Shown piece after piece: positions 7,125 through 22,610 of a DNA stretch of 64,000 bases; positions within the stretch are counted from its first letter, which is position 1; each line of letters starts with the position of its first letter. The stretch is taken from positions 1 through 64,000 of the forward strand of contig CAJSZV010000014.1 in the NCBI GenBank assembly GCA_910574345.1, written 5' to 3'. A program made the translations under genes and the position numbers. Under the pieces are notes generated by a model. It was not told the origin of the DNA and ran no database searches. It saw nothing but the letters and a program-made list of their open reading frames with translations. Origin of the DNA: Clostridiaceae bacterium. GTDB lineage: Bacteria > Bacillota > Clostridia > Lachnospirales > Lachnospiraceae.

Positions 7125-8507
7125 TTATTGTATGGCTTTCTTTTTCCATCTTCCCAGCCGGTAACAGATCATGGTAATGGCTGCTCCCAGTATCCAGGAG
7201 ATCAGAAGGGAAACCCAGATGCACTCATATCTTCCCTGAGGAAGCTCATGGGTTCTTGTGGCAGCGGCTATCCCATAGGCCAGAGGCACACGGATGGCAA
7301 CTGTGGTAATCATGGAGATCCACATGGGAGTCATAGTATCTCCGGCTCCGCGCATCACGCCTGACAGGCTCTGGGTTATGGCCATGGCAATATATCCCAC
7401 TGCCAGAATCCCCATCATATTGGCGCTTAAGACTACCAGCTCCGCAGTATTGGTAAAGATCGCCATAAGATGCCGGCCAAGCAAAAGTATCATTCCCGTA
7501 ATGACGGCAGAGGTTCCCACAGCAATAAAAGTCCCCTGCTTTGCCCCCTGTTTTACCCGGTCAAGTTTCCTGGCCCCCACATTTTGGCCTGCATAGGTAG
7601 TCATGGCTGTACCGAAGGAAAAATTGGGCATCATGGCAAATCCGTCCACCCTCATAATAATCACATTGGCAGCAATGACCATTTCTCCAAAGCTGTTGGT
7701 CAAAGACTGCACCACTACCATGGCCAGGGAAAAGATAGCCTGAGTAACGCCGGAGGGAAGCCCCAGACGCAGAACCATGGCAAGATTCTCCTTGTTGGGT
7801 TTCAGATACCTGAATTTCAGATCAAAAAGATCGGTCATCTTCCGCAGTTTGAATACGCAGAGGATGGCGGATATCATCTGGGCAATCACCGTGGCCAGGG
7901 CCACACCGGCTACTCCCAGGTTAAGTCCTGCCACAAACCATATATCCAGAATAATATTGATTACCGTAGCCACCAAGAGATAAATAAGGGCCGACAGAGA
8001 ATCCCCCAGCCCCCGCAAAATACCGCACAAAATATTATAATAAGCCGATCCTGAGATGCCCATAAGCCAGATAAACAGGTAGGCAGCGCACCAGTCCATA
8101 ATGCTGTCCGGCGTATTCAGAAGGCGGAGCACAGGCCTTATGATCATGGACACAAAGACCATGAGAAATAGGGAAGCCGCGGCTGTAAGTGTAATGGAAC
8201 TCCCCACGGTTCGTGACAGATTCTCCCGGTCCTTAGAGCCGTAATACTGGGACACCATAATACTTGCCCCCATAGCAATTCCCACAAACAGCACCAGAAT
8301 CAGATTCAGCATGGGGCTGGCGCTTCCCACAGCAGCCAGGGCATTATCCCCTACATATTTTCCCACTACAATACTGTCCACCGTATTATATAGCTGTTGG
8401 GCGATATTGCCGATAAGCATGGGGATGGTAAATGCAATGATCTTCTCCCATGGCCTGCCCTCCGTCATATCAACCTGCGCAAACAGCTGTTTTATCTTTG
8501 TCAGCAT
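7125..8507 (-). CDS. MATE-family multidrug/cation exporter
   Basis: This 460-residue protein has 12 predicted membrane segments. The family signature appears near the N-terminus (PMLIGNIAQQLYNTVDSIVVGKYVG), with a related half repeat in the second part (GLPSGVTQAIFSLAMVVVQSLTNSFG). MATE proteins use Na+ or H+ gradients to expel cationic drugs or metabolites across the plasma membrane. It probably forms a unit with the 47-codon gene just upstream (19 bp gap). The substrate cannot be read from sequence. A second, distinct MATE gene lies at 52293-53657. Confidence 0.9.
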   Translation of the reverse strand: MLTKIKQLFAQVDMTEGRPWEKIIAFTIPMLIGNIAQQLYNTVDSIVVGKYVGDNALAAVGSASPMLNLILVLFVGIAMGASIMVSQYYGSKDRENLSRTVGSSITLTAAASLFLMVFVSMIIRPVLRLLNTPDSIMDWCAAYLFIWLMGISGSAYYNILCGILRGLGDSLSALIYLLVATVINIILDIWFVAGLNLGVAGVALATVIAQMISAILCVFKLRKMTDLFDLKFRYLKPNKENLAMVLRLGLPSGVTQAIFSLAMVVVQSLTNSFGEMVIAANVIIMRVDGFAMMPNFSFGTAMTTYAGQNVGARKLDRVKQGAKQGTFIAVGTSAVITGMILLLGRHLMAIFTNTAELVVLSANMMGILAVGYIAMAITQSLSGVMRGAGDTMTPMWISMITTVAIRVPLAYGIAAATRTHELPQGRYECIWVSLLISWILGAAITMICYRLGRWKKKAIQ

Positions 8508-8782: not shown

Positions 8783-9376
8783 TCACTCACTCATCAGTCT
8801 CTCAAGCTTTTCCTCCGCTCCCACCCTGTTCTCAAAAAATACTGCCAGCTGGTCAACAGGCCCTTCTGTCATGGGAATCATCACCATGTCCTCTTCCTTT
8901 TCAATGACGCCCGCTACAATAAACCGCTCCTGTCCCACCTTGACGCACTCACCTGCCACTTGTGTACTTCCGAACAGGTGACTGGCCAGGCCGCTGCACA
9001 GGACACAGTAATCTCCATCCACATCCAGACCATAGCGCCCGCAGAGAATGTCCGCCTTTTCCACCAGCTCCATGGAGCCATATACAGACACCACCTTTGT
9101 CGTTCTCCTTCTTCCTGTACTGACGGAACAGACAATCTGCTGTTCGTCCACTCTCCAGCCGGCCATGTTGACAATGCCTAAGTAACCCTCCTCCTCTCTT
9201 TCCTCCCACCTCTTCATGGTTCCGGCCTCCACTCTTTTGCCCCTGCAGTCAGCCTCCATACGGCAGGGCATACGGAACATGTAGTTCCAGTACACCATTC
9301 CTCCTATAACCATAACTGCCGCTGCCAGCAGGATTCCTGCCAGGCCCTGGACCGCACTTCTCCTTTTCCTGTTCAT
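8783..9376 (-). CDS. MacB-like extracytoplasmic domain protein
   Basis: This 197-residue protein has one N-terminal membrane segment (about 9-30) and an external domain. The segment SHLFGSTQVAGECVKVGQERFIVAGVIEKE resembles the periplasmic core of MacB/FtsX-type ABC permeases, where a 'G..v.i....f.VvGv' strand pair is common. The usual C-terminal three membrane helices and an ATPase are absent. The start at 9376 follows GGGAGAGG. It is the last gene of the solute-binding/permease/fusion-protein cluster, 22 bp after the fusion protein gene. I infer an accessory partner of that protein; domain assignment is by eye. Confidence 0.6.
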   Translation of the reverse strand: MNRKRRSAVQGLAGILLAAAVMVIGGMVYWNYMFRMPCRMEADCRGKRVEAGTMKRWEEREEEGYLGIVNMAGWRVDEQQIVCSVSTGRRRTTKVVSVYGSMELVEKADILCGRYGLDVDGDYCVLCSGLASHLFGSTQVAGECVKVGQERFIVAGVIEKEEDMVMIPMTEGPVDQLAVFFENRVGAEEKLERLMSE

Positions 9377-9398
9377 CTTCCTCTCCCATTGCCATGAC

Positions 9399-11063
9399 CT
9401 AAAATTCTGACACGGGCCGCACTCTGGCGCCCTCCCATATTCCTTTGTTTTCGCCGACAATCACACGATCACTGTCAAAAATGGATCCCTCCACGGCTGC
9501 CTCCTGATTTCCCTGGTACAGCACCTGCACTTCCACCCGCTCTGCCCGGAACTCTTCTCCCAAGATCGTTGACACCGGCCTGGCTACCAGACAGTAATAC
9601 CCTTTCATGTCCTTCCTGAGCCCTTCTAATGGGATCACTTTGTCAAATACATCGGACTGCCTGCTGCATGAATAGGAGGTGACAGTACCAAGAAGCCACT
9701 GGGAACTTTCCAGATCTGCCTGGAAGATTCCCTCTGTCTCCCCCAGAAGATTCATCCGTGCGATTTTTGCCTCCTGGATCTTCTGAGTTCCCGGAACGGC
9801 GATCTCGATCATATCCCCTATGGACAATTCCTGGTCTTCCTTTATAAATCTGCCCTCAAACTGGGTATTGCCTGCTGTCAGAGACAAAAGCTCCCCTCCT
9901 GTAGTTTCCTTTCCTTCTATAAGTTCCATATCCGCCACCACTCCAGGCAACGATGTCCTTACGGCGCCTCCTGACTCATCAAGTTCTGTGATTGTTCCAA
10001 GTTCCTTTTCCTTTTCCTTCCGGTTTAACTCCAGTTCCCTTATGGTAAGCCGGGAGATTCTAACCTGCTGTTCCCTGGCGGATTCCTGGGCTGCATCCTG
10101 TTTGCGGGCCCCCTCCGCCTGCCACCGGACTTTCTCCACAGCCTTGTTCAAAGCCTCCAACTCCTTCTCGGCCGCTTTCATCCGTTCATTTTCCTGTTTC
10201 ACAGCCTCCTCATAACTTTCCCTTCTGGCCTCCTGGACACTGGTCTGTCCCAGGCGAATCCGATCCTCCTGATATTCCAGAAAATCCAGTTGGGATCTGG
10301 CGCTTCTGATCTGATCTTCCCAGGAATCTTTCATATCGCTCAAATCTTTTCTGGCTCTTCTCAGCTGCTTTTCCAATTGTCCTCTGCCTTCCTTATCCTC
10401 CTCGGAAAGACCATTCAATTGCTCCTCCAGATCCTCTATCTTCCACTCCTGCTCCTTCAAAGCCGCCTCTCTTGAATTTCTCACGGTATCCAGCTGTTCA
10501 CTGGCTGTCTCCCAGTCTTTCTCCTGCTGATGCCACAACTCTTCTTCCGCCAGGTTAAGCTCCCTCTCGTATTTTTCTTCCAGGCGTCTCAATTCCTCTG
10601 CGTGGTCTGCAGCTATTTCCTGAAATTTCGCCTGTCCTTCCTCCAATTCTCTCTGTGCCAGCCCCAGTTCCCAGAGAGCGGTCTCCGTCTGGGTAAGGCC
10701 ATCATAATTTTCCTGGGATATCTGCTCCTTCTCTATGTTTAAGTCAATCTGTTCCAGTTCCTTCTCAAGTTCCTCTTTTCTCTCAAGAACGGACTCCGAA
10801 TCATACCAAAACAAAATATCCCCCTCCTTTACCTGGCTTCCCGGTATCACCATAACCTGCCTTATCATCAGTCCGGGCTCAATATGGCAGAACTCCTTTT
10901 CCTTTACCTTGACGGTTCCAGTTCCTTCAATATACGTTTCCACCGTTTTCCGCTTTGCCGTGGCGGTTATCACCTTCGGCACTGTCACACTGTCATAGAC
11001 TCTGGAAATCGCGGTGCATAGGATCATAAAAAGGAAAAAACCGGCCAAAAGATATCTCTTCAT
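9399..11063 (-). CDS. HlyD/MacA-type membrane fusion protein with long coiled coil
   Basis: This 554-residue protein has a signal anchor (residues 3-20) and a split biotinyl-lipoyl-like half (VETYIEGTGTVKVKEKE to VKEGDILFWYD). A charged coiled coil of roughly 250 residues (about 78-345, rich in E, K, Q, R) follows. The second lipoyl half (TSLPGVVADMELIEGKETTGGELL) and a beta-barrel-like C-terminal part complete it. Such adaptors bridge exporters to the envelope. In a Gram-positive cell it would project into the wall. An adaptor inside a sugar-importer-type operon is unusual. RBS GAGGTGA; 18 bp after the upstream permease gene. Confidence 0.8.
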   Translation of the reverse strand: MKRYLLAGFFLFMILCTAISRVYDSVTVPKVITATAKRKTVETYIEGTGTVKVKEKEFCHIEPGLMIRQVMVIPGSQVKEGDILFWYDSESVLERKEELEKELEQIDLNIEKEQISQENYDGLTQTETALWELGLAQRELEEGQAKFQEIAADHAEELRRLEEKYERELNLAEEELWHQQEKDWETASEQLDTVRNSREAALKEQEWKIEDLEEQLNGLSEEDKEGRGQLEKQLRRARKDLSDMKDSWEDQIRSARSQLDFLEYQEDRIRLGQTSVQEARRESYEEAVKQENERMKAAEKELEALNKAVEKVRWQAEGARKQDAAQESAREQQVRISRLTIRELELNRKEKEKELGTITELDESGGAVRTSLPGVVADMELIEGKETTGGELLSLTAGNTQFEGRFIKEDQELSIGDMIEIAVPGTQKIQEAKIARMNLLGETEGIFQADLESSQWLLGTVTSYSCSRQSDVFDKVIPLEGLRKDMKGYYCLVARPVSTILGEEFRAERVEVQVLYQGNQEAAVEGSIFDSDRVIVGENKGIWEGARVRPVSEF

Positions 11064-11081
11064 TTACTCAGTCACCTCAAC

Positions 11082-11927
11082 TCACTGTTTCACGCCTGAC
11101 GCCGCCACTCCCTGTTCCAATTCCTCCTGGCAGTTTAAGTAAATAAGCACCGGCAGAAGACAGGTAATCAACGCCGCCGCAAATGCCACCGACGCCTTAT
11201 CCTTTGCGATATCAGGCAGGTACAGAGCAATGGGCCACAGATTCTTGTCTTTCAGGTAAGTAACCGGCTGTTCCAGAGCATTCCAGCCGTCAAGAAAGCC
11301 AAGCATCAAAGCCGTGGCAATGCCCGGATATCCCAGAGGCAGGCCCACATGGAAAAATGTATAAAATTCCCCGGCCCCGTCCAGATAAGCGGCTTCCACC
11401 AGGGCATCAGGTATGGTCTCAAAAGATTTTGTCATAATAAAGACCGGAAGTGTGGACCAGATTCCCGGCAGAATCAGGGACCAGTGGGAATTCAAAATTC
11501 CCATTCCGTCAAGAACAAGATAGTTGGACACCTGGGTCACCTGGAAGGGCAGTATCATGAGAATGACATAGATTCCAAACAGAAGCCTTTTTCCGGGAAA
11601 ACGGAATCTGGCAAATGCCCATGCAGCCGGAGCGGCTGCCAGAAATTGACCTGCAGCCATGGGAATCACCTGAATACAGGCATTCCAGAACATGACAAAG
11701 AACCCCGGAGAGCGGATCAGCAATTCCCCAAGGGAGTCCCCTGACGGGTAGGAAGGAATCAAAGCGGCCCTCACTCTGTCCCTGCCCAGCCCCAAGGGGG
11801 ACAGATAACGCCAATACAGCTCGTCTTCCGGCATCAGGGCCCCGGCTCCCATGATGAGGAGAGGTACCCATATCAGAAAACAGGCTCCATACAAAAGGAT
11901 GGTGTGAAAGACATGTCTCTTTTTCAT
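11082..11927 (-). CDS. Carbohydrate-type ABC permease (MalG-like)
   Basis: This 281-residue protein has six membrane segments and the cytoplasmic EAA loop EAAYLDGAGEFYTFFHVGLPLG, which docks the ATPase in MalG/UgpE-type permeases. The start at 11927 overlaps the previous stop as ATGA and has AAAGGGA upstream; a longer start at 11951 is possible. It pairs with the MalF-like permease next to it. No ATPase is encoded in the cluster, so if it is an importer it would need a shared ATPase such as MsmX, as is common in Firmicutes. Confidence 0.87.
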   Translation of the reverse strand: MKKRHVFHTILLYGACFLIWVPLLIMGAGALMPEDELYWRYLSPLGLGRDRVRAALIPSYPSGDSLGELLIRSPGFFVMFWNACIQVIPMAAGQFLAAAPAAWAFARFRFPGKRLLFGIYVILMILPFQVTQVSNYLVLDGMGILNSHWSLILPGIWSTLPVFIMTKSFETIPDALVEAAYLDGAGEFYTFFHVGLPLGYPGIATALMLGFLDGWNALEQPVTYLKDKNLWPIALYLPDIAKDKASVAFAAALITCLLPVLIYLNCQEELEQGVAASGVKQ

Positions 11928-12775
11928 GCTTTTCCCTTTCTCCATATCCAAAGAACGGCTGTGGGCAGAAGAAATGCTGCAGTTACCATCACGGCTGCCG
12001 CAGTCATCTTCTGTATGTCCAGATTCAGGAACCAGTGGGCAAACAAGTGAGGAATCATATAAATGGAGGAATCCGGGTAGGATCCTGCCAAAAGGTAAGC
12101 CTCCCTGTACACCCGAAAGGAATTGACCACGGACAGAATACCCGTCAGACAGAAGGTTCCATGGAGCTGGGGAAGGGTGATATACCGCAGCTGTGCCAAA
12201 CTCCCTGCCCCGTCCATCCTGGCCGCCTCATAGAGCTCTCCCGGAATTGTGCCAAGACCGGCCAGCCACAGAATCATATCATATCCCGTATGTTTCCACA
12301 GATACGTCATAAGCAGCATGGGAAACGCATATCCGGAAAATGCCCAGTCGATTTCCCACCTCTGTCCTGTAATCCCGGACAAAAATTGATTAAACACTCC
12401 CTCAGGACAAAGAAATATCTTCCAGACCAGCACCATGCTGGCGGCAGGGACAGCCATAGGCAGAACCATGGTAGTTCTGATCACCCCATAGCCGCCGCCC
12501 CCTTTTGCCATTCCTGACAGAATCAGGGCCAGCCCCAGGGAAACCGCCATTAACGCAGGGATACAGACTGCCAGGAAATGCAGAGTATTGCCTGCCGCCA
12601 GCCGGAATGCCTCATTGTTCCACACCGCCCGGTAATTGTCCCATCCCAAAAATGTCGTGCCCATGGCGTTTAAAAACGACCGTCTCACCACATCTAAAAA
12701 AGGAATTCCCATAAACACCATGACTCCGGAAAGGCTTGGCGCCAGAAACAGCCAGGGAATCATTTTCTTTCTCAT
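11924..12775 (-). CDS. Carbohydrate-type ABC permease (MalF/UgpA-like)
   Basis: This 283-residue, six-helix permease carries the EAA loop EAARMDGAGSLAQLRYITLPQL. It starts 3 bp after the stop of the solute-binding lipoprotein gene and overlaps the next permease by 4 bp, so the three are translated together. It would form the heterodimeric channel with the MalG-like protein. Similar pairs move oligosaccharides, glycerol phosphates or sugar acids; the substrate is unknown here. Confidence 0.87.
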   Translation of the reverse strand: MRKKMIPWLFLAPSLSGVMVFMGIPFLDVVRRSFLNAMGTTFLGWDNYRAVWNNEAFRLAAGNTLHFLAVCIPALMAVSLGLALILSGMAKGGGGYGVIRTTMVLPMAVPAASMVLVWKIFLCPEGVFNQFLSGITGQRWEIDWAFSGYAFPMLLMTYLWKHTGYDMILWLAGLGTIPGELYEAARMDGAGSLAQLRYITLPQLHGTFCLTGILSVVNSFRVYREAYLLAGSYPDSSIYMIPHLFAHWFLNLDIQKMTAAAVMVTAAFLLPTAVLWIWRKGKA

Positions 12776-12778
12776 AGG

Positions 12779-15076
12779 CTACTCCGCCAGGTAGATGGAT
12801 AGCTTTCTTAAGATTCCCTCCGCCGCCTGTTCCACAGACTCTTTGCCGTCAAAATAGTTTTGAGAGCCTTCTGTGACCATATTCATCACGGTTTCATCCA
12901 ACATCACAGGAACAGTCAGCCCGTCCATCATAGCCGCTACCTCTCTCCTTACTTCCAGGGAAGGATAAGGGGCGCTGATATGATAACCGTCTCCCCAGCC
13001 CACTCCCTCGGAATAAGGTCTGTCCGTCTCCACTATGGTTTCCAGGGCCTTTTTGTTCACCGGCAGCCCGTCATAGAGTTCTTCCCGCTGGACCTCATAG
13101 GACAAAAGACAGCGGATAAACTCTTTTGCCATATCCGCATTTGCCGTGGAACGATTGATTCCCGCTATAGAAGAAGGTATATAGATGTCCCCTGCCGCTG
13201 CCATCTTGCTTTCCGGATTTCGATTCCTCACTTCCGCCGGAATAAGAAGACTCGTATATCCGTCCATGAATTCCACGCCGCTGTCGCTCCTTCCTGCGTC
13301 ATAGAGGACGGACCGCCCTGTAATTCCTGTAGGCGCCACATGGTTGGACACCCAGTTTACTTCCATCTCATCCTGGGAGAACACGGTTTTGCTTCCTCCG
13401 GCATCTCCCAAAGTCTTTACGGACTCCAGATACCTTATGAGCGTATCCCTGTCCGCCATGCCTTTTCCTTCCGCAAACAGTTCTTTGTACTGCAATGTAG
13501 CCACAAGCCGCAAAAGGTTTCCATAGTTGTCTGTTGGTATTAAGGGTTTCTCCCCCTGGTAGTCTGTCATGTCCTTTAGGCTGGAATATGCCGAAACAGC
13601 CTTTTCTCCGCCCAGTATCAGAGGAAATCCCATTCTCGTCGGCAGCATATGGACAGAACCGTCTTCTTCCTTAAATCCCTCCAGAATATTGTTGAACATA
13701 TCACCGGAACTTTCCAATTCTGCTGCTATATCCTTAAGATCTAAGAGAACGCCTTTTTCTATATAGGAAGCTGCGGGAAGCCCGTCCAGAATCAGGATAT
13801 CCGCGCCCTTGCCGCTTAAGAGTTCCGTATTCAGCCCCTGTATCATCTCTTCCGTCACGCTCTGGCCGTCTTCTGCCGCTGTGCGCACCTCTACCCATAT
13901 ATCCGGATGTTCGCTCTGAAACTGGGAAGCTGCCTGCCTTACAGTGGAATGATCTTCCAGACTGTATACTGTCAGAACCGACGGCGGAACCGCTGCCATG
14001 TCCGGGTCATATTCATAATGGCATATCTGGATACCTTTTCCCAAGTCGCCGGCATACACTCCGTAGAAATCTCCCTCATCCCCTTCCAGGAAGCCTCTCA
14101 TACTCAGGCTGCGCATCCCCATACGGTTTAAGTTGCCGTCTATGAGGACCTCCCACATAGTCCCTCCCCGGTTCACATGGGACAGCCCCACTTCCGTGGC
14201 CAGGTAGATCCCGCCCTCACCGTCTCCAAACAGTATTTCAGCGCCGTCTCTGCCGCCTTTCACCTCGTCACAGACTATGGTTTCCATTATCTTTCCTGTC
14301 TTTCTGTCATATCTCACTACGCTGCCGTCCAGGAATGTCACAAACTCCCCGCCTTCGCAGAATCCTCTGGAATCCCTGTCATAGCCGGAGAAATCTCTTG
14401 TCATGGCTGTAAGCCTTTTCCCGGTCGAATCATAGATGTCTGCTTCGCTGTAGTCGTAAAGCAGGAAATTCCCATCATCAAGCACCTGGAATTTCGGCGG
14501 GGTCATGCCGTAAGTACTCCCCTCCCGGGGGGCAAACACCTCTTCTAAAAGCTTTGTCGCACTTCCGTCCTCTTCCAGTCTCAGAAGATGATAACGGTAA
14601 TCCTCCTTATCAACGCCTCCGATATAATAGGCTCCGTCAGAACCGTACTCCACACAGAACAGTTCCAAACGATGCTCCGCCGCCGCTGCAGTTCCCTGCC
14701 AGTCCTCCGTCTTTGTCCAGGTCCCGTCCTCATACACATACTGATAAACCGCTGTGTCATTGCCTTGGGAATCCTTTTCTGTTGTATACAGTTCCAGTCT
14801 TCCCCCCTCGCCTTTCAAGAATTGAAGGACGAATTGATCTTCCGCTTCCCCCGGCAAGTCCACTAAGGTCTCCCTGTACCGCCCTTTGGCCTCCTGCTCC
14901 TTTGAACCCTCTTTGGCCTCCTGGCCGTTCTTCTCCTTTCCTGTCTCGCTCTCCCGGCTCGCCTGGGCTGTATGATTCTCTGTACCTTTGCCGCCTAGCT
15001 GGCAGCCGCCAAGGAGACTTGCCATAAGTCCTGCCACAGCCAGCCACGCTCCATATTTTTTCAATATTCCTTTCAT
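12779..15076 (-). CDS. Large solute-binding lipoprotein with N-terminal propeller-like domain
   Basis: This 765-residue lipoprotein has a signal peptide with lipobox LLGGC (C25) and a charged linker (about 30-65). A region of roughly 300 residues with repeated short beta-strand/'DG' motifs (for example YGSDGAYYIGGVDKEDYRY, LDDGNFLLYDYSEADIYDSTGK) resembles a beta-propeller. A family 1-type solute-binding domain runs from about 375 to 765 (LTVYSLEDHSTVRQAASQFQ, ILDGLPAASYIEKGVLLDL). Ordinary sugar-binding lipoproteins are 420-550 residues, so the front domain is an addition. It heads the cluster and diverges from the two-component system. It may sense as well as bind. Confidence 0.82.
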   Translation of the reverse strand: MKGILKKYGAWLAVAGLMASLLGGCQLGGKGTENHTAQASRESETGKEKNGQEAKEGSKEQEAKGRYRETLVDLPGEAEDQFVLQFLKGEGGRLELYTTEKDSQGNDTAVYQYVYEDGTWTKTEDWQGTAAAAEHRLELFCVEYGSDGAYYIGGVDKEDYRYHLLRLEEDGSATKLLEEVFAPREGSTYGMTPPKFQVLDDGNFLLYDYSEADIYDSTGKRLTAMTRDFSGYDRDSRGFCEGGEFVTFLDGSVVRYDRKTGKIMETIVCDEVKGGRDGAEILFGDGEGGIYLATEVGLSHVNRGGTMWEVLIDGNLNRMGMRSLSMRGFLEGDEGDFYGVYAGDLGKGIQICHYEYDPDMAAVPPSVLTVYSLEDHSTVRQAASQFQSEHPDIWVEVRTAAEDGQSVTEEMIQGLNTELLSGKGADILILDGLPAASYIEKGVLLDLKDIAAELESSGDMFNNILEGFKEEDGSVHMLPTRMGFPLILGGEKAVSAYSSLKDMTDYQGEKPLIPTDNYGNLLRLVATLQYKELFAEGKGMADRDTLIRYLESVKTLGDAGGSKTVFSQDEMEVNWVSNHVAPTGITGRSVLYDAGRSDSGVEFMDGYTSLLIPAEVRNRNPESKMAAAGDIYIPSSIAGINRSTANADMAKEFIRCLLSYEVQREELYDGLPVNKKALETIVETDRPYSEGVGWGDGYHISAPYPSLEVRREVAAMMDGLTVPVMLDETVMNMVTEGSQNYFDGKESVEQAAEGILRKLSIYLAE

Positions 15077-15101
15077 AATGACCTCCTTCTGATTATTAAT
15101 T

Positions 15102-15112
15102 CTATCATAGCA
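15102..15112 (-). promoter_or_regulatory. Extended -10 promoter of the lipoprotein cluster
   Basis: On the minus strand TTGCTATGAT gives an extended -10 (TG, one base, TATGAT; hexamer 15104-15109). No good -35 is visible at 17 bp, which fits a promoter that needs an activator. Confidence 0.45.
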
Positions 15113-15141
15113 ATTCTTTCTCTAAAAAAACTGGAAACTCC

Positions 15142-15179
15142 ATTTTAATTTTTAAAGATTTTTTAGAGATTTTTATGAT
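15142..15179 (+). promoter_or_regulatory. Direct repeats, candidate response-regulator site
   Basis: Units ATTTTTAAAG (15148-15157), ATTTTTTAGAG (15158-15168) and ATTTTTATGAT (15169-15179) recur with a 10-11 bp period, after a partial unit at 15142. OmpR-family regulators bind such helical-phase direct repeats. The last unit runs into a TATACT -10 (15177-15182) for the regulator gene. Confidence 0.5.
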
Positions 15180-15230
15180 ATACTTTTTCATAGATGTTGA
15201 AACGAAAGCACACATCCCTGGAGGGAGCAT

Positions 15231-15917
15231 ATGAAAATTCTCCTTATTGAAGACGACCGGGATCTCTCCCGGCTGATCTGCCTGTCCTTACATCAGGCCG
15301 GCTACGACACGGACACCTGCTATACCGGAAATGACGGCCTCTTCTACGCAAAAAATCAAGTCTATGACGCGATTATTCTGGACCGCATGCTGCCGGAGAT
15401 CGACGGCCTCACGGTTCTCGAAGCCCTGCGACGCACAGATATCAAAACTCCTGTCATACTCACCACCGCCCTGGGCAGTCTTCATGACCGTGTAGACGGC
15501 CTGGATGCAGGCGCCGATGATTATTTGGTAAAACCCTTTGCCCTGGAAGAACTTATGGCCCGAATCCGGGCCGTGACCAGAAGACCTGGCAATCTTCAAA
15601 CTTCTTCCGCCCTGTCCGTCTGGGGTCTCAGCCTGGAGCCTTGTGAGCGCCGCCTCACTCTTAAGGATCGGTCCCTAAGACTCTCCAAAAAAGAGTCCGC
15701 CCTTCTTGAATATTTTATGAAAAATCCCGGACAGACTCTGCCCCGCTCCATGATTCTTTCTTATGTATGGGGAGCCTCCTCAGAAGTAGAAGAGGGAAAT
15801 TTAGACAACTATATTTATTTTCTGCGCCGACGCCTCAAATCCTTAAATGCACCGGTTAAACTTACCACTGTCCACGGGACAGGATATCGGCTGGAGCACA
15901 GGGAAGACGAATATTAG
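15231..15917 (+). CDS. OmpR-family response regulator
   Basis: This 228-residue protein has a receiver domain (1-115) with acidic residues D8-D9, phospho-acceptor D51 and K101 in DYLVKPF. A winged-helix DNA-binding domain follows (about 128-225; LRLSKKESALLEYFMKNPG, VEEGNLDNYIYFLRRRL, VHGTGYRLE). It would be phosphorylated by the kinase 21 bp downstream and bind direct repeats upstream of promoters. It diverges from the lipoprotein/permease/adaptor cluster across a 154-bp gap, which makes that cluster the likely target. The ribosome site is GGAGGGAG. Confidence 0.93.
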   Translation: MKILLIEDDRDLSRLICLSLHQAGYDTDTCYTGNDGLFYAKNQVYDAIILDRMLPEIDGLTVLEALRRTDIKTPVILTTALGSLHDRVDGLDAGADDYLVKPFALEELMARIRAVTRRPGNLQTSSALSVWGLSLEPCERRLTLKDRSLRLSKKESALLEYFMKNPGQTLPRSMILSYVWGASSEVEEGNLDNYIYFLRRRLKSLNAPVKLTTVHGTGYRLEHREDEY

Positions 15918-15938
15918 ATAAAAAAGAAAGGAACTGCC

Positions 15939-17234
15939 ATGAACACTCTCCGCAGACGCCTGGCCGGGCTTTATACCATTACCGCCGGAACCATCCTCCT
16001 ACTTGTTATGGCGGCATTCTGTCTGTTTTCCCTGAGAGAAGCCGAACACAGCCAGTTGGAGCAGTTTCAGCTTATCTGGAGTTCCCTATCTTCCAGATTC
16101 CAGTCCTCCACTATGTTCACCCACGGCTTTCTTGCCCGGACGGAAGCCGACTATAACCTGATTATCCATATCCGGGAAAACGGCATTCCTTTCCGGTTTC
16201 AGGGTTCCTGGACTCCTGCAACAGACCGGGATACCCTTATCCGCCGAGCCATGGATACCGCCGGAGACCAGGGAGTCTACATGGATGTGGCTCCCATATC
16301 CTCCACCGTAAACATGTCCTCCCTCATCACCATAAGCGGTGACCACAGCGACAGGTATTACGCTAAAATTCTGTCCCTTGCCGCCGGAAAAGGCGTAAGA
16401 AGTATCTGTGTAATCTCCAGGATCCCGCCTGTAATCCAGTCTCTTGGAGGAACCATTCCTTATGTGTGCGTCTTAAGTGTCCTGGGAATCGGCGGTCTGT
16501 GGCTCATGAGCTGGTATTTTGTGGGATGGTCCTTAAAGCCTGTGGAAGAAAGCAGAAAAAAACAGGCCGGTTTTATTGCCGCTGCGTCCCATGAACTGCG
16601 CTCTCCCCTTGCGGTCCTGAAATCCGCCGCCCATGCTATGAACGCCTCCCCCTCGGACACAGACGCTCTCCTTCCTCTCATCGACCAGGAGTGCAGCCGC
16701 ATGTCGCGGTTGGTAGATGATATGCTCCTTCTGGCCTCCTCCGATGCCGAAACCTGGAGCGTGCACAGGGAAGAAGTTGATATGGACACCCTCCTTATCG
16801 ACCTTTTTGAATTCTTTTGCCCTGTATGTAAAGAAAAGGGGGTCTCCCTTGGCCTGGAACTTCCCGAAGAACCTTTGCCTGTCATAAGCGGGGATCCCCA
16901 GAGACTCCGCCAGCTTCTCATGATTCTTCTTGACAATGCGAAAAATTATACTCCCGCCGGCCGGTCCGTCACAATGAGCGCCGCGACTGACCATAAAAAT
17001 AAGGCCCTGATCCTTGCGGTAACGGACCAGGGCTGCGGAATTCCCGACGAACATAAACCTTATATTTTTGACCGGTTCTACCGGGCCGACTCCGCACGGG
17101 CAGATAAAGAACACTTCGGACTGGGCCTTAGCATTGCGAAAGAACTTGCAAGGCTTCATCATGGCACCATCTCTGTGAAGGATGGAGTTCATGGAGGGAC
17201 CTGTTTTGTGGTTACTCTTCCCTGGTCAGCTTGA
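15939..17234 (+). CDS. Sensor histidine kinase
   Basis: This 431-residue membrane kinase has TM1 (about 11-32), an external sensor region of about 140 residues and TM2 (about 172-196). A HisKA domain with H218 in SHELRSPLAVL and a HATPase_c domain (N-box near LLDNAKNYTP, G1 DQGCGIPDE, G2 GLGLSIAKEL) follow. No obvious HAMP domain separates TM2 from HisKA. The external region could read the state of the adjacent lipoprotein or adaptor. It is cotranscribed with the response regulator. Confidence 0.92.
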   Translation: MNTLRRRLAGLYTITAGTILLLVMAAFCLFSLREAEHSQLEQFQLIWSSLSSRFQSSTMFTHGFLARTEADYNLIIHIRENGIPFRFQGSWTPATDRDTLIRRAMDTAGDQGVYMDVAPISSTVNMSSLITISGDHSDRYYAKILSLAAGKGVRSICVISRIPPVIQSLGGTIPYVCVLSVLGIGGLWLMSWYFVGWSLKPVEESRKKQAGFIAAASHELRSPLAVLKSAAHAMNASPSDTDALLPLIDQECSRMSRLVDDMLLLASSDAETWSVHREEVDMDTLLIDLFEFFCPVCKEKGVSLGLELPEEPLPVISGDPQRLRQLLMILLDNAKNYTPAGRSVTMSAATDHKNKALILAVTDQGCGIPDEHKPYIFDRFYRADSARADKEHFGLGLSIAKELARLHHGTISVKDGVHGGTCFVVTLPWSA

Positions 17235-17428: not shown

Positions 17429-17448
17429 AAGCCCATGAGGTGAGAGAT

Positions 17449-18540
17449 ATGTTGCGGTATAAGGAGATTAAACGGCAGCTTTTAAACCTGGCAGATCACA
17501 TGTCTCCCGGAGAAAAGCTTCCGTCAAGGCTTTCCCTTTGTAAAAAACTTGATACCAACCGGCGGACTCTGGATAAAGCCATTGGGGAATTGTGCGTGGA
17601 AGGGGTTTTCTATTCTGTGAAGGGAAGCGGCACCTTTATCAATGCCTTTAAAAAAGAAATCATATACACAGCAGAAAACTGGGGATTAATCCTTCCCAAT
17701 GTCAGGATGCCGGTTTTTGCCAATATTGCAGAGGCTATCGAAAGCTTCGCGAACTCCAAAGGAATCAATCTGATTCTTTGTAATTCGGACGAAGATATCG
17801 AGAAACAGGAAGGATATATTCAGAGATTAAGCAAATCACCTATATCCGGTTTCATCATGATTCCCGTAGTTGTGGATGATATTTTTACCAATATAAACGT
17901 TTATACAAGATTGCTGGAAACCAAAATTCCTCTGGTATTTTGCAGCCGGGTTGTACCCAATATCAATGTCCCCGTTGTCATGATCAACAATTTCTACGGC
18001 GGCTATATCGCCACAAAGCACCTTTTAGATCAGGGATACCATAATATCGCCTTCATAGCCATTCACGATCACAACAAAGGGTCTGTCACCAAAGAACGAT
18101 GTCAGGGATACATCAGCGCATTGATGGAATCGGATATTCCCGTAAACTACCACTGGATTCTTGCAGAAAATGAAATCCAGGATTCCAGAGCTGCATACGA
18201 AAGAATCCGGAAGCTTCTAAAATCCAGCAAAGAAATTGATGCTATCTTCGGCAGCAATGACGAGACTTGCAAGATCGTCTATCAGGCCATAAAAGACAGC
18301 AGACTGAAAATATCCGATCATATCGGCGTAATCGGTTTTGATAATACCCTTCATTGTATGAATATGGTTCCGCCTTTGTCTTCTCTTACTTATAATGGTG
18401 AAGATATCGGTTCCATAGCCGCCGAAATCTTATGGAATATCACTCAGGGCACCTACTTATCTCCTGATTATCCCCATTATTTCTGTAAGCCTCAGATTGT
18501 GTGCCGTGAAAGCTGTATGGGACCTATCCATAAGCCATAA
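17449..18540 (+). CDS. GntR-type winged-helix / LacI-type sensor regulator
   Basis: This 363-residue regulator combines an N-terminal GntR winged helix (about 1-70; KLPSRLSLCKKLDTNRRTLDKAI, VKGSGTFI) with a LacI/periplasmic-binding-type sensor domain (about 85-355; GLILPNVRMPVFANI, LVFCSRVVPNINVPVV, DHIGVIGFDNT). This is the AraR-like architecture, in which a sugar releases the repressor. The ATG at 17449 is preferred over GTG at 17440 because GAGGTGA lies five bases upstream of it. It heads a sugar transport operon and probably controls it; candidate operators are at 17355 and 18578. Confidence 0.88.
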   Translation: MLRYKEIKRQLLNLADHMSPGEKLPSRLSLCKKLDTNRRTLDKAIGELCVEGVFYSVKGSGTFINAFKKEIIYTAENWGLILPNVRMPVFANIAEAIESFANSKGINLILCNSDEDIEKQEGYIQRLSKSPISGFIMIPVVVDDIFTNINVYTRLLETKIPLVFCSRVVPNINVPVVMINNFYGGYIATKHLLDQGYHNIAFIAIHDHNKGSVTKERCQGYISALMESDIPVNYHWILAENEIQDSRAAYERIRKLLKSSKEIDAIFGSNDETCKIVYQAIKDSRLKISDHIGVIGFDNTLHCMNMVPPLSSLTYNGEDIGSIAAEILWNITQGTYLSPDYPHYFCKPQIVCRESCMGPIHKP

Positions 18541-18577
18541 ACCATATTTTGAATTACTGTATTTTATTTCCGATTCG

Positions 18578-18594
18578 GCAATTGGCGCCATTGC
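18578..18594. promoter_or_regulatory. 17-bp near-palindrome upstream of the transport genes
   Basis: GCAATTGGCGCCATTGC is symmetric at all but two base positions, including the centre. It lies in the 106-bp gap between the regulator and the solute-binding gene and could be a second operator. Confidence 0.4.
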
Positions 18595-18646
18595 TGCTTT
18601 CGGAAGTTTAATAGAAAAAACAACAAGCCTAAAAGGAGAGAGCACT

Positions 18647-20005
18647 ATGAAAAGAAAGATAACGGCCATATTGCTGGCAGGATGTTTTTTGATCGGAAGC
18701 CTTGCGGGGTGCGGAAATAAGAACACTGCAGGCAGTAATAACTCTGATACCTCCAAAACTGACGCCGCTCCCACAAGCACAGCTGCCGGCGGGACCGGCA
18801 ATACAGCAAGCAGCCCGTCGGGTGATATCCAAAACGAAGACATAACCATCACCCTTTGGCATCGCTGGAGCAGTTTGACAGAGGAAGCCCTTATGAATCT
18901 TATTGCTGAATTTGAGGAGGCCAATCCCAATATCCACGTAGAAGTCACGGCGAAATCCGGAGAATATTTTACTCTCCTTCAGTCCATGATTGCCGATGCC
19001 GCCGCTGGCAATGACCTGCCTGATGTATTTGTAGGCGGATACAACCTATTAAATTATATTGCAACGGAACTAAAACCAACTGTCATAGATGAACTGGCCC
19101 CATCTCAGAATGATCTGGACAAGTTAACCTCCTATTTCCAGCCTGGTATGATGGAACTGGCCCAGTATGACGGCAAACAAGTAGGGCTGCCCTTTGCAGT
19201 CAGCATCATGCCCATGTACATCAATATGGATTTGTTTCGGGAAGCCGGATTGACGGAAGCTGATATTCCCACGACCTGGGACGAGGTATTTGAGGTTGCC
19301 GAGATCATTGAAAAAAACACCAGTGCCGCCGGCGTCCAGATTCACAACATGGCAGACGCATGGGGAGATCAGGCACTTGTTTTCTCCCGAGGGGGGCAGC
19401 TGCTTACAGACGACAAGCAGAAATGTAATTTCACCAATGAGGGATGTATCGCCGCACTGACCATGTGGCAGGATCTCTACAGCAAGGGATACGCCACGGA
19501 GCTTTCCTCCAGTGAGATTCAGTCAACCTTTACATCAGGAAACCTGGCAATATACTGCACCTCCATCATGTCTGTAAACACCATTGTGGAGTACAGTGAT
19601 TTTGAAGTGAAAATCTGCAAAACTCCTTCCTTCAAAGATCATGACTTAAAACTCCCCTCCGGCGGAGCGGCTCTCATCTCCTTCAGCAAACAGCCGGAGA
19701 AACAAAAGGCTGTCTGGGCTTTCTTAGACTATGCCAGCAGCAAGGGAATGGTCAACTGGGCCAAGGATTCCGGATACCTGTGTCCTACCAATGTGGATCT
19801 GGAACTCAACGATTACATGAAAGCCGCATATGAATGTCTTCCTTACAGCGTTGCATGGGAATGCTGGCCCGGCGGTTCTGCGGGTATGGAAATCGACAGC
19901 ATGTGGATCACCACCCGCAACGAGATTCTCTGGGAAGGCGCCGATGTGACAAAAACGCTGACGGAATTAGAAGAAACGTGCAATATGATGTTGGAGAACA
20001 AGTAA
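18647..20005 (+). CDS. Sugar ABC transporter solute-binding lipoprotein
   Basis: This 452-residue extracellular binding protein has a signal peptide with lipobox LAGC (C22), a Ser/Thr/Gly-rich linker (to about 62) and a family 1 solute-binding domain beginning ITITLWHRWSSLTEEAL. It would be anchored outside the membrane and deliver a carbohydrate to the two permeases at 20867-22610. The start at 18647 follows AAAGGAGAG and gives a proper signal peptide. The binding motif is generic, so the sugar is unknown; the neighbouring isomerase suggests a monosaccharide or inositol-like compound. Confidence 0.9.
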   Translation: MKRKITAILLAGCFLIGSLAGCGNKNTAGSNNSDTSKTDAAPTSTAAGGTGNTASSPSGDIQNEDITITLWHRWSSLTEEALMNLIAEFEEANPNIHVEVTAKSGEYFTLLQSMIADAAAGNDLPDVFVGGYNLLNYIATELKPTVIDELAPSQNDLDKLTSYFQPGMMELAQYDGKQVGLPFAVSIMPMYINMDLFREAGLTEADIPTTWDEVFEVAEIIEKNTSAAGVQIHNMADAWGDQALVFSRGGQLLTDDKQKCNFTNEGCIAALTMWQDLYSKGYATELSSSEIQSTFTSGNLAIYCTSIMSVNTIVEYSDFEVKICKTPSFKDHDLKLPSGGAALISFSKQPEKQKAVWAFLDYASSKGMVNWAKDSGYLCPTNVDLELNDYMKAAYECLPYSVAWECWPGGSAGMEIDSMWITTRNEILWEGADVTKTLTELEETCNMMLENK

Positions 20006-20031
20006 CTGCAGACCTGGAGGAGGAAAGAAGA

Positions 20032-20850
20032 ATGAATTTTATTTATAATAAAAATGAATACGCAGTTACTACCTGGACCCTGGAACATATGACCTTAAAG
20101 GATGCCTTAAATGTCTTTGACCGGTACGGTTTTAAGAATATAGAAATCTGGGCCGATACGGTACACCTGGATCCGCGGTGCAGCCCGGATATCAAAGAAA
20201 TAAAAAATCAGATCCGCAGCCTCGGCATGCAGGTGCACTCCGTCCATGGCCCTTTCCGGAATTATAAAAATCCGCCGTCAGAGGAAGAAGCCTTCCGTCG
20301 TTTCCGCACGGATACCCTTAAAAAGACCATTGATTATGCATATGAACTGGGATGCTCCATTCTGGTCATGCATGCCCTGGACCGGAAAGAATACAACTAT
20401 TCCGTGGAGCAGATTCCCATGGTGCAGGATTATGTAGGCGAAATCGCCCGCTACGGAGTTCAAAACGGCGTCCAACTGGCAATCGAAGACATCCCTCCCG
20501 GCAAGAAGTCCGACGAGATCTGCACCACCCTGGAGAATCAGAAAAAAATATTTGGCCATTTGGGCGTAAAGTATTGTCTGGATATCGGACATGTCCCGCT
20601 TTTGGGGGCGGACCTGTTTCGGGAGACCGATGCTGCCGGATCGGATCTCATTACCTTCCATATCCATAACAACAGCGGTATATCCGACGATCATTATCTG
20701 CCGGACAACGGCATCATCGACTGGCCGCAGCTCCACGACTATATCCGCAGCACGGGCTTTCAGGGTGAATTTGTGTTGGAGATATACGGCGGAACCGACA
20801 AAGAAGGGGAACTGGATACGTTGAGACGAATGGACAGTCTCTTTAAATAG
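20032..20850 (+). CDS. Sugar isomerase/epimerase, xylose-isomerase-like TIM barrel
   Basis: This 272-residue protein shows the AP-endonuclease-2/xylose-isomerase-like fold. Key segments include VHGPFRNYKNP, VMHALDRKEYN, LAIEDIPPGKK (metal-ligand Glu), YCLDIGHVPLLGADL (Asp and His), ITFHIHNNSG (His) and FVLEIYGG (Glu). These match the divalent-metal site of the family, which includes inosose isomerases, tagatose epimerases and hydroxypyruvate isomerases. It starts 26 bp after the binding-protein gene with GGAGGAGG. It lies between binding protein and permeases, so it likely acts on the imported sugar or its product. Confidence 0.87.
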   Translation: MNFIYNKNEYAVTTWTLEHMTLKDALNVFDRYGFKNIEIWADTVHLDPRCSPDIKEIKNQIRSLGMQVHSVHGPFRNYKNPPSEEEAFRRFRTDTLKKTIDYAYELGCSILVMHALDRKEYNYSVEQIPMVQDYVGEIARYGVQNGVQLAIEDIPPGKKSDEICTTLENQKKIFGHLGVKYCLDIGHVPLLGADLFRETDAAGSDLITFHIHNNSGISDDHYLPDNGIIDWPQLHDYIRSTGFQGEFVLEIYGGTDKEGELDTLRRMDSLFK

Positions 20851-20866
20851 AAAGGGGATTGCAATT

Positions 20867-21787
20867 GTGTCAAAAAATGAGAATTACACACCGGCCAGAA
20901 GGAGACCCTTTAGCCGGGAGGACGCCTGTTTCTGGCTGTGGCTGATTCCCGTCATAGCAGCTTACGGGTTATTCAAGTATTGGCCCATGATTTACAGCTT
21001 TATCTTAAGTTTTGCCAATTGGAACTTTATCTCTGATTTTACGTGGGTAGGGTTTGGCAACTATACCAACATGTTCTCAAAGACCATGTTTATAAAAGGT
21101 ATGGTCAACACCTTAAAATATATTGTTTATCTGTTCCCGTTTTTTGTGATCCTGCCTTTGCTGCTGTCGGTTATGCTTTTGAATGTCCGAAATAAATTTG
21201 CCCAGGAATTATACAAAACCCTGTTCTTTATTCCGAATATACTGGCTCTCTCCATTGTTTGTATGGTATGGCTGTGGATATTTTCATCCTCCTACGGATT
21301 ACTGAATAACTCTCTGACCAAACTGGGCATTGCATCGGTAAACTGGCTTACCAACAGCAAAACCGCCTTTTACTGTATCGTAGCTGTATGCGGGTGGAAA
21401 TATCTTGGAATGAATATGATCCTGTTTATCGCAGGACTCCTGGGTATCTCCCAGGACTGCGTGGAAGCCGCATATATTGACGGCGCCAGCGGCTGGCAGT
21501 GCTTCTGGAGCATCAAAATGCCCTTGCTGGCGCCCACAACAGTCTATGTAGTGATTACCTCCGTTATTTTTGCGGCGGAGCGCGCATTTACGGCAATCAG
21601 TGTTCTCACCTCCGGCGGTCCCTCCTACACAACTACTAATTTGTCCTATGTGATTTATGAATTTGCCTTCAAGTACTATAATATCGGCACTGCAAGCGCA
21701 ATTTCAACCTTCACATCTGTCTTTTTCCTGCTGCTGACGGTTATTATGATGCGTACTATGGGAGGCTATGGATATCATGAAGAATAA
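20867..21787 (+). CDS. Sugar ABC permease (MalF/UgpA-like)
   Basis: This 306-residue protein has six membrane segments and the EAA loop EAAYIDGASGWQCFWSIKMPLL. A GTG start at 20867 is used here because AAAGGGG precedes it and no nearer ATG keeps the first helix. It overlaps the next permease gene and lies in the regulator-binding-protein-epimerase-permease operon. Its ATPase must come from elsewhere in the genome. Confidence 0.88.
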   Translation: MSKNENYTPARRRPFSREDACFWLWLIPVIAAYGLFKYWPMIYSFILSFANWNFISDFTWVGFGNYTNMFSKTMFIKGMVNTLKYIVYLFPFFVILPLLLSVMLLNVRNKFAQELYKTLFFIPNILALSIVCMVWLWIFSSSYGLLNNSLTKLGIASVNWLTNSKTAFYCIVAVCGWKYLGMNMILFIAGLLGISQDCVEAAYIDGASGWQCFWSIKMPLLAPTTVYVVITSVIFAAERAFTAISVLTSGGPSYTTTNLSYVIYEFAFKYYNIGTASAISTFTSVFFLLLTVIMMRTMGGYGYHEE

Positions 21788-22610
21788 AAAAAGATTACTG
21801 TCTCAGAGCCTGCTCCATGTTGTCAGCCTTGTACTGCTGATTATTATTCTCTTTCCCCTTTTATGGATGGTTTCATCATCCTTAAAGACACCGAAAGAGC
21901 TGTTTTCCAACGGCATCAATCTGCTTCCAAAGCAGATTACCCTGGAGAATTACCGGTTTGTTCTGGAAAAATACGATTTTGTTCAGTGGCTTCTCAACAG
22001 TATTGTCACTACCTTCGGCATCTTTATCCTGCAGGTATTCATTTCCCTTATGGGTGCCTTTGCACTCAATTATTACAGGACCAGATGGAACCGCATCATG
22101 TTCTACTTTGTGCTGATCACCATGGTAATCCCTTTTCAGGTTACCATGATCCCCAATTATATTCTGATCAGCAATATGGGCCTGGTAGATACACAGATTG
22201 CCGTGATTCTTCCCTATGCTGCCAATGCGACCACTTTCTTTTTCATATATCAGCAGGTGCGCAGCATTCCGAAGTCCTACTATGAAGTCGCCCGTATAGA
22301 AGGCGCTCATTCCTTCTGGGTATTTCAGCATGTAATGTGCGGACTGTGCAAGGGCTCCATTGCAGCCGTATCGATTCTGACTATCATTGATGCCTGGAAT
22401 CTTTACTTCTGGCCGCTGTTAGTGCTGTCCTCACCGAAGTCACGGACACTGACCATTGCTTTAAAACAGTTTGCCGATTATGAGGTAGGCGATAACTGGG
22501 GACCCTTCATGGCCACGGCCAGCCTAGCGTCTCTGCCCGTAGTCCTGGCCTATACCTTTTTCCGGCGTCATATTATTGATGCCTTTGTTTCCTCAGGCAT
22601 CAAAGGCTGA
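21777..22610 (+). CDS. Sugar ABC permease (MalG/UgpE-like)
   Basis: This 277-residue six-helix permease has the EAA-type loop EVARIEGAHSFWVFQHVMCGL; the usual Ala-Ala-Asp-Gly core is changed to Ala-Arg-Ile-Glu-Gly. The ATG at 21777 has GGGAGG 11 bases upstream, while the ATG at 21768 is too close to that site. It is the last gene of the operon and is followed by the dispersed repeat and a hairpin. Confidence 0.87.
   Translation: MKNKKRLLSQSLLHVVSLVLLIIILFPLLWMVSSSLKTPKELFSNGINLLPKQITLENYRFVLEKYDFVQWLLNSIVTTFGIFILQVFISLMGAFALNYYRTRWNRIMFYFVLITMVIPFQVTMIPNYILISNMGLVDTQIAVILPYAANATTFFFIYQQVRSIPKSYYEVARIEGAHSFWVFQHVMCGLCKGSIAAVSILTIIDAWNLYFWPLLVLSSPKSRTLTIALKQFADYEVGDNWGPFMATASLASLPVVLAYTFFRRHIIDAFVSSGIKG

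Follow-up and report, generated by a model that had tools for sequence, protein, structure and literature searches.

The window, the whole 64,000-nucleotide stretch of DNA that was analysed, comes from a Hungatella-like genome and carries seven genes that very probably belong together as one dedicated system. With moderate confidence for the statement as a whole, we read them as an importer of the CUT1 kind, dependent on a binding lipoprotein (SBP), to which a MacA-type adaptor and a MacB-type domain are added as accessory subunits, and which would work by the wall-side mechanism proposed below.

Five of the genes form one tight operon on the minus strand. It begins with the SBP (15076-12779), a lipoprotein of 765 aa with a lipobox recognised by eye (LLGGC) and a match to the Pfam family SBP_bac_1, followed by a MalF-type permease (12775-11924; BPD_transp_1, EAA loop EAARMDGAG), a MalG-type permease (11927-11082; BPD_transp_1, EAA loop EAAYLDGAG), a MacA/HlyD-type adaptor of 554 aa (11063-9399) and a MacB-like extracellular domain carried by a single N-terminal helix (9376-8783; 197 aa, MacB_PCD). 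The plus strand carries, divergently, an OmpR/PhoB-type response regulator (15231-15917; Response_reg/Trans_reg_C) and a HisKA sensor kinase (15939-17234; HisKA/HATPase_c), whose extracellular region spans, as judged by eye, some 130-140 residues. The sequence-only reading had placed a binding lipoprotein, two permeases, an adaptor and a MacB-like gene in a single operon; all are indeed found there. The ATGA overlap and gaps of 3-22 bp that it described also agree with the coordinates, which give intergenic gaps of 3, 18 and 22 bp and an ATGA overlap between MalF and MalG, provided that the ATG at 11927, which overlaps the MalF stop, is taken as the MalG start. We adopted this start rather than the earlier TTG given in the ORF list and, for the MacB-like gene, the 197-aa frame rather than the listed 225-aa frame from a TTG.

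The system occurs in several families of the sampled phylum, gut bacteria included. Adaptor matches are present in 21 of the 26 genomes of the genus, and a separate collection contributed 30 loci with identical gene order as far as each contig extends. The order SBP-MalF-MalG-adaptor-MacB-like is kept in the genus and is somewhat rearranged in other families. A MalG-seeded search of 398 genomes of the phylum, with up to six candidates scored per genome, revealed a gap between scores above 340 bits and the next at 215 bits. All nine listed matches above the gap (8 genomes, 5 families) adjoin adaptor and MacB-like genes, and at all eight generic MalG loci fetched, chosen from the listed matches below it, both the adaptor and the MacB-like gene were absent, including by six-frame search. 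From the stronger matches listed by an order-level adaptor search 25 loci were fetched (L214-L238). MalG adjoins the adaptor in 21, and 20 of these also have the MacB-like gene; L238 has MalF, MalG and the adaptor, with no MacB-like match. In three further loci (L230-L232) a MacB-type ATPase is present but MalFG is absent, and L227 is a lone adaptor. The adaptors of L201 and L238 are overlapped by opposite-strand ORFs, and both were confirmed by tblastn. Chance co-location is ruled out by the 21 genus genomes, the 30 further loci and the phylum-level matches, and the presence of the set in many genomes likewise rules out an assembly or strain artefact.

The trees point in the same direction. 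In the MalG tree a single branch (98) splits 86 system rows from 12 generic ones, and the four subunit trees, compared over 79 loci, give distance correlations of r 0.78-0.89, with a permutation maximum of 0.14. As judged from these comparisons the parts of the hybrid cluster are co-inherited, and correlated trees can also stem from vertical inheritance within one operon. The 40 family-level loci were chosen from 93 matches, mostly as the best-scoring, and L090, which is canonical, was left out; L132 and L133, which appear to be duplicates of L067 and L045, were omitted from the four-subunit tree and are still counted in the EAA-motif counts, the MalG tree and the 97 hybrid loci. The sequence-only reading had called for a search for the families occurring together, and had named as the case against itself a permease trio and an adaptor pair that only ever occur apart. 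The co-occurrence of system-type MalG with both genes at every listed match above the gap, together with the correlated subunit trees, speaks for the joint machine.

An OmpR-type regulator and a HisKA kinase adjoin the cluster in several families. Between the regulator and SBP genes lie twin operator-like boxes in opposite orientation (15119-15169): the regulator-side box, at 15151-15169 on the minus strand, is an 11-bp direct repeat, TCTCTAAAAAA/TCTTTAAA, and the SBP-side box starts at 15119 on the plus strand. Among genus-type loci that have a regulator, the box precedes the SBP in 13 of 16, a count that is not independent since the pattern was derived from such loci; upstream of the SBP it is also found in 11 of 38 distant loci with a regulator and in none of the 23 without. 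This conserved box supports a two-component system predicted to be dedicated to the cluster. Across the window's genome, the pattern hits one site with one mismatch, the operon's own locus, and one A/T-rich site with three mismatches; the reversed control pattern gave five hits, so no regulon is shown beyond the operon's own locus.

The same arrangement could be read as a sensing or detoxification system resembling BceAB-RS, where the SBP, the adaptor and the MacB-like domain would catch an antimicrobial or wall-derived molecule, MalFG would remove it, and the kinase would sense through the transporter. The adjoining two-component genes and the conserved box before the SBP gene would suit such a role, as would the lack of any recurring catabolic or cargo gene beside the cluster among 70 loci, where the largest component in the neighbour-gene comparison consisted of ABC ATPases linked together (22 of 70). 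However, the cluster transports through MalFG instead of a BceB-type permease, the kinase could sense directly by its own extracellular region, and the regulator is missing from 23 of the 61 distant loci and from the genus loci L040 and L049, despite more than 5 kb upstream of the SBP being in view. We consider this reading rather unlikely.

The window's MacB-like protein matches MacB_PCD with 28.2 bits (cut-off 27), and of 11 relatives eight score above the cut-off, two below it and one has no match. Compared with the PDB, the family profile finds YknZ (5f9q, E 1.9e-7) and also MacB, so the cluster has the MacB-type extracellular domain of a Type VII system. The sequence-only reading had described this domain as lacking ATPase and permease helices, which holds: no FtsX permease domain was detected in the window protein or in any of 11 hybrid relatives, with canonical controls positive in 4 of 4, and no MacB/LolD-type ATPase was found in the window operon or inside any of 97 hybrid loci. 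The possibility that the cluster conceals an FtsX domain or an ATPase of this type was thus examined and rejected. The C-terminal helices of the protein are reduced in two clades, and a single loss maps to the window's clade (100); that one conserved clade, together with conserved motifs, rules out a truncated pseudogene. With no FtsX and no MacB-type ATPase in the cluster, and with MalFG beside them, the exporter-type parts are without the motor that normally drives them and accompany an importer.

That motor might instead be supplied from outside, the operon then encoding two machines: a conventional importer made of SBP and MalFG, and the adaptor with its MacB-like partner, served by an ATPase/FtsX unit elsewhere. 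The window's genome does contain two canonical YknXYZ-type loci with MacB-type ATPase and FtsX (L001, L002), and a MacB-type ATPase lies 1-3 kb outside the cluster in 4 of the 97 hybrid loci (L047, L137, L201, L222). Each canonical locus, however, has its own adaptor, so that neither appears to be the real partner elsewhere which the sequence-only reading had named as a possible refutation, and the cluster retains its own MacB-like partner, with FtsX not detected in any of the 11 relatives tested. The co-occurrence at the nine listed MalG matches and the separate MalG branch also argue against two machines, and we give this reading very little credence.

The importer half is of the CUT1 kind, combining an SBP with MalF and MalG that bear EAA loops. 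Its SBP_bac_1 match falls in the second half of the SBP; the N-terminal part, of about 330 aa, matches no Pfam family, and NCBIfam gives it a weak propeller-type match only. A strict EAA motif is present in 83 of 91 MalG and 63 of 90 MalF sequences of the family; one clade has a degenerate MalF loop (e.g. EVARLESAS), and the glycine of the MalF loop is substituted in 15 of 79. CUT1/MalFGK importers share MsmX/UgpC ATPases. There is no ATPase gene in the window's own cluster, the genome has eight MalK-like ATPases at other loci, and at ten related loci a MalK/UgpC-type ATPase is built into the cluster; two of these ATPases were checked against NCBIfam and score 504 and 448 bits (cut-off 432). 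That a MalK-type ATPase and MalFG instead drive a substrate outwards by way of the adaptor tube, loaded by the SBP, would suit the export-type adaptor and MacB-like domain, but is very unlikely given the EAA loops, the SBP and the UgpC-type ATPases, all importer features, and given that MalFG-type transporters are known as importers.

To our knowledge, adaptors of the MacA/HlyD family are otherwise known from export. The window's adaptor consists of an N-terminal helix, a lipoyl domain split in two (by eye), a two-arm hairpin and a C-terminal part. Pfam gives it no match at E 0.05, and in NCBIfam its matches to the RND_mfp and type I HlyD models fall below the cut-offs. In a PDB profile search the family-wide alignment matches MacA, EmrA and HlyD chains as well as 5xu0, and by this profile it is a MacA-type adaptor as in MacAB/YknXYZ-type (Type VII) systems; the genus-only alignment gave a single coiled-coil match. 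The sequence-only reading was right about a long coiled coil, but its length is nearer 270 residues than the 250 proposed, in two arms of about 130-137 each. The hairpin is proline-free across residues 75-372, has one internal insertion point in common (after residue 223) and a helical periodicity of 3.56-3.64, which was as high in only 3, 12 and 9 of 500 shuffles. Adaptors of the family vary between 388 and 789 aa in length, and no fixed wall-spanning height is therefore conserved.

The relatives of the host suggest that it is Gram-positive, in which case the machine would cross no more than the cell wall. We propose that the MacB-like domain may serve as a membrane-anchored platform for a ring of adaptors, whose long hairpins would extend into the wall as a tube or tether. 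A wall ligand could then pass to the SBP, which is large and lipid-anchored, and be taken in through MalFG, presumably driven by a MalK/UgpC-type ATPase encoded at another locus of the genome. The kinase would respond to the ligand or to the state of the transporter, and the regulator, acting at the twin box, would activate both operons. We see an even chance that the system imports and uses the adaptor as its wall-side conduit or tether. More tentatively, the cluster may represent a new class of envelope machine in the Bacillota, in which an importer takes up its ligand by way of an adaptor tube reaching into the wall, either through the tube or along it, with a MacB-derived base that has become motorless, a MalK-type ATPase as sole driver and its own two-component readout.

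The sequence-only reading knew of no described system with this set, and no matching description of a machine combining importer and exporter parts was found in searches of an open-access library; the system seems to be unnamed. CUT1/MalFGK-type importers share with it the SBP_bac_1 lipoprotein, MalF and MalG with EAA loops and, in some clusters, a UgpC-type ATPase, whereas the hybrid cluster has two extra export-type subunits, an SBP enlarged N-terminally by about 330 residues and its own MalG branch. BceAB-RS is similar in having a regulator and kinase beside a transporter with a MacB-type extracellular domain; a MacB review describes BceB as a ten-helix permease working with the ATPase BceA and no adaptor (PMC5985334). 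The hybrid cluster, in contrast, has MalFG, an adaptor and an SBP, and no BceB-type ten-helix permease or BceA gene is present in the window's cluster. The closest likeness on the export side is to the Gram-positive MacAB-like pumps YknWXYZ and Spr0693-0694-0695, where a MacA-type adaptor also stands beside a MacB-type extracellular domain. Compared with these pumps the cluster is without a MacB-type ATPase and a detectable FtsX, and the MacB extracellular domain, kept while the C-terminal helices are reduced, appears decoupled from mechanotransmission. Its adaptor arms would reach about 200 Å by calculation, compared with the 56 Å helical barrel and 154 Å apex height reported for Spr0693-0695 (PMC5768738). 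The MacB review asks why Gram-positive bacteria, which are without an outer membrane, have adaptor proteins at all (PMC5985334); with an adaptor tied to an uptake system and the usual motor absent, this question becomes testable by deletion.

The hybrid operon of the window has the parts that the sequence-only reading gave it: the genes for the SBP (the 765-aa binding lipoprotein), MalF, MalG, adaptor and MacB-like protein lie on the minus strand (15076-8783), with the regulator and kinase genes divergent from them (15231-17234), and the family labels are backed by Pfam and NCBIfam. The window protein alone gives the adaptor label weak support and the family profile gives it firm support: in the PDB the adaptor profile hits MacA, EmrA, HlyD and the pneumococcal 5xu0, and the profile of the MacB-like family hits YknZ (5f9q, E 1.9e-7) and MacB. 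We take the hybrid system as a single importer with a wall-side accessory module, in which the MacB-like domains would form the base of that module, the adaptor ring and hairpins a tube or tether, and the SBP the receiver; MalFG with a MalK-type ATPase would be the sole driven part, and the kinase and regulator would set expression. The draft genome that contains the window measures 5.6 Mb in 106 contigs, and its relatives place it close to Hungatella. A gene that by eye encodes a MATE-type transporter (7125-8507) lies immediately downstream of the operon; relatives of this gene lie near the cluster at 8 of 70 loci, of which four come from other genera. The protein at 39422-40297 has C-terminal repeats that, also by eye, resemble those of choline/cell-wall-binding proteins (GWHKLNGSWYYYDENGAMAHGW).

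An adaptor match was found in 21 of the 26 genomes of the genus, with MalG and the MacB-like gene adjoining the adaptor as far as the stretch examined extends. A separate named collection yielded 30 loci, whose sources include Hungatella hathewayi WAL-18680 and uncultured Lachnospiraceae; the order SBP-MalF-MalG-adaptor-MacB-like is common to all of these with a long enough contig, a regulator being visible in 18 of the 30 and a kinase in 14. In the family, 76 of 299 genomes have MacB-like profile matches; 40 loci were examined from the 93 matches listed, with adaptor and MacB-like genes in 39, MalF and MalG as well in 38, and an SBP in 37. The exceptions are a canonical (YknXYZ/MacAB-type) locus with a MacB-type ATPase (L135) and a 7-kb contig starting within the adaptor (L115). 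The hybrid system predates the genus. One genus genome carries a second MalF-MalG pair, 43-44% identical (L038, 58-2457), followed by a short adaptor-like protein with a weak adaptor match, nearest to the 388-aa adaptor type, and no MacB-like match within the 3.4 kb covered; it is possibly another variant of the system.

Two oppositely oriented operator-like boxes lie between the regulator and SBP genes (15119-15169), TCTCTAAAAAATCTTTAAA and TCTCTAAAAAAACTGGAAA, the former being an 11-bp direct repeat, a spacing typical of OmpR/PhoB-type sites. Allowing up to two mismatches, the box precedes the SBP gene in 13 genus-type loci of the 16 that have a labelled regulator and in 3 of the 4 that do not; among more distant loci it was present in 11 and absent in 27 of the 38 with a regulator, and present in 0 of 23 without; the reversed pattern, used as control, gave 0, 0, 1 and 0 hits, respectively. 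Elsewhere in the same loci (~1.48 Mb) the box has 4 hits and the control 2. In two loci (L040, L049) over 5 kb of sequence preceding the SBP gene contains neither regulator nor kinase, yet the box is present. The distribution of the box supports a dedicated two-component system for the window's branch of the family, with the box as putative operator. In a rival reading, the system would be a sensing and detoxification module resembling BceAB-RS.

FtsX (PF02687) is found in 4/4 canonical MacB/YknZ proteins and 0/11 hybrid MacB-like proteins. By a simple hydropathy count mapped on the MalF+MalG tree (79 loci), the hybrid proteins have several C-terminal helices in 43 cases, one in 19 (18 of which group together) and none in 17, which form one side of a branch with support of 100 and include the window's protein. 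The absence of FtsX and the reduction of helices therefore point to the extracellular domain as the retained part, and by domain content the exporter half is without its motor. In the one-helix group (L112, L119, L121-L125, L129-L131, L134, L137, L138, L199, L217, L233, L234, L237) a second SBP of ~800 aa often follows the MacB-like gene, regulator and kinase are mostly absent, and the MalF EAA loop is changed in most members. The longer MacB-like proteins, with several C-terminal helices (L100, L102, L104, L106, L114, L136), share a motif like IPTRWSDFEFW in their C-terminal half (alignment A5).

No MacB-type ATPase lies inside the hybrid cluster in any of 97 loci; four loci (L047, L137, L201, L222) have one 1-3 kb outside, which in L137 is part of a canonical cluster directly downstream (12237-15835; MacB-type ATPase, adaptor, FtsX-bearing permease). 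Ten loci (L099, L113, L199, L201-L205, L217, L226) have a MalK-like ATPase within the cluster. Both of those compared with NCBIfam exceed the UgpC cut-off of 432 bits (504 and 448), and a Pfam search, run on one, shows the MalK OB and TOBE domains. Those of L199 (11367-12668) and L217 (11825-13120) have 431-433 aa, against 357 aa in the UgpC model, with an extra C-terminal part. The window's genome encodes eight MalK-like ATPases elsewhere. By a strict pattern, the EAA loop is present in 83/91 MalG and 63/90 MalF proteins, the MalF loop being altered in one clade. A second rival reading is an export system.

Residues 75 to 372 of the window adaptor include no proline; the sole internal point with more than three inserted residues in total across 28 relatives follows residue 223 and is taken as the probable hairpin tip. 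The arms of 137 and 130 residues give a calculated length of ~200 Å (1.5 Å per residue). The pneumococcal pump is reported to have a helical barrel of 56 Å and an apex height of 154 Å, figures that the paper compares with the inner wall space (PMC5768738). It follows that the window adaptor could extend deep into the cell wall. Adaptors range from 388 to 789 aa in length.

With the system MalG as query against 398 genomes of the phylum (up to six candidates scored per genome), nine matches exceeded 340 bits, in eight genomes of five families, the next among the matches listed scoring 215 bits. Adaptor and MacB-like genes adjoin all nine (window, L112, L199-L205), against none of eight generic MalG loci chosen from the listed matches below the gap (L206-L213), and a six-frame search using ten proteins of each kind (adaptor, MacB-like) gave the same negative result; the proposed co-occurrence of permeases and adaptor pair is thus borne out. 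In the MalG tree, 86 system and 12 generic proteins, several of the latter on long branches, fall on opposite sides of one branch (support 98, FastTree). The MalG of a second, ordinary-looking window operon (17440-22610; by eye, LacI-type regulator, ~500-aa SBP, sugar isomerase-like protein, MalF/MalG) is on the generic side. The pairwise distances in the trees of the four subunits (MalF, MalG, adaptor, MacB-like protein) correlate at 0.78-0.89 over 79 loci (permutation maximum 0.14), which shows co-inheritance and not contact, since vertical inheritance alone can produce such a correlation. Two unrelated machines sharing one operon is the rival least compatible with the data.

Among the neighbours of 70 loci, no cargo or enzyme gene recurs that would point to a substrate. 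The open-access literature searched yielded no paper describing such an importer/adaptor combination. The hybrid system has the SBP and the MalF/MalG permeases with EAA loops that mark CUT1-type importers and lacks two features that define MacAB-type systems, the FtsX domain and a MacB-type ATPase in the operon; to our knowledge two of its subunits occur in no known importer.
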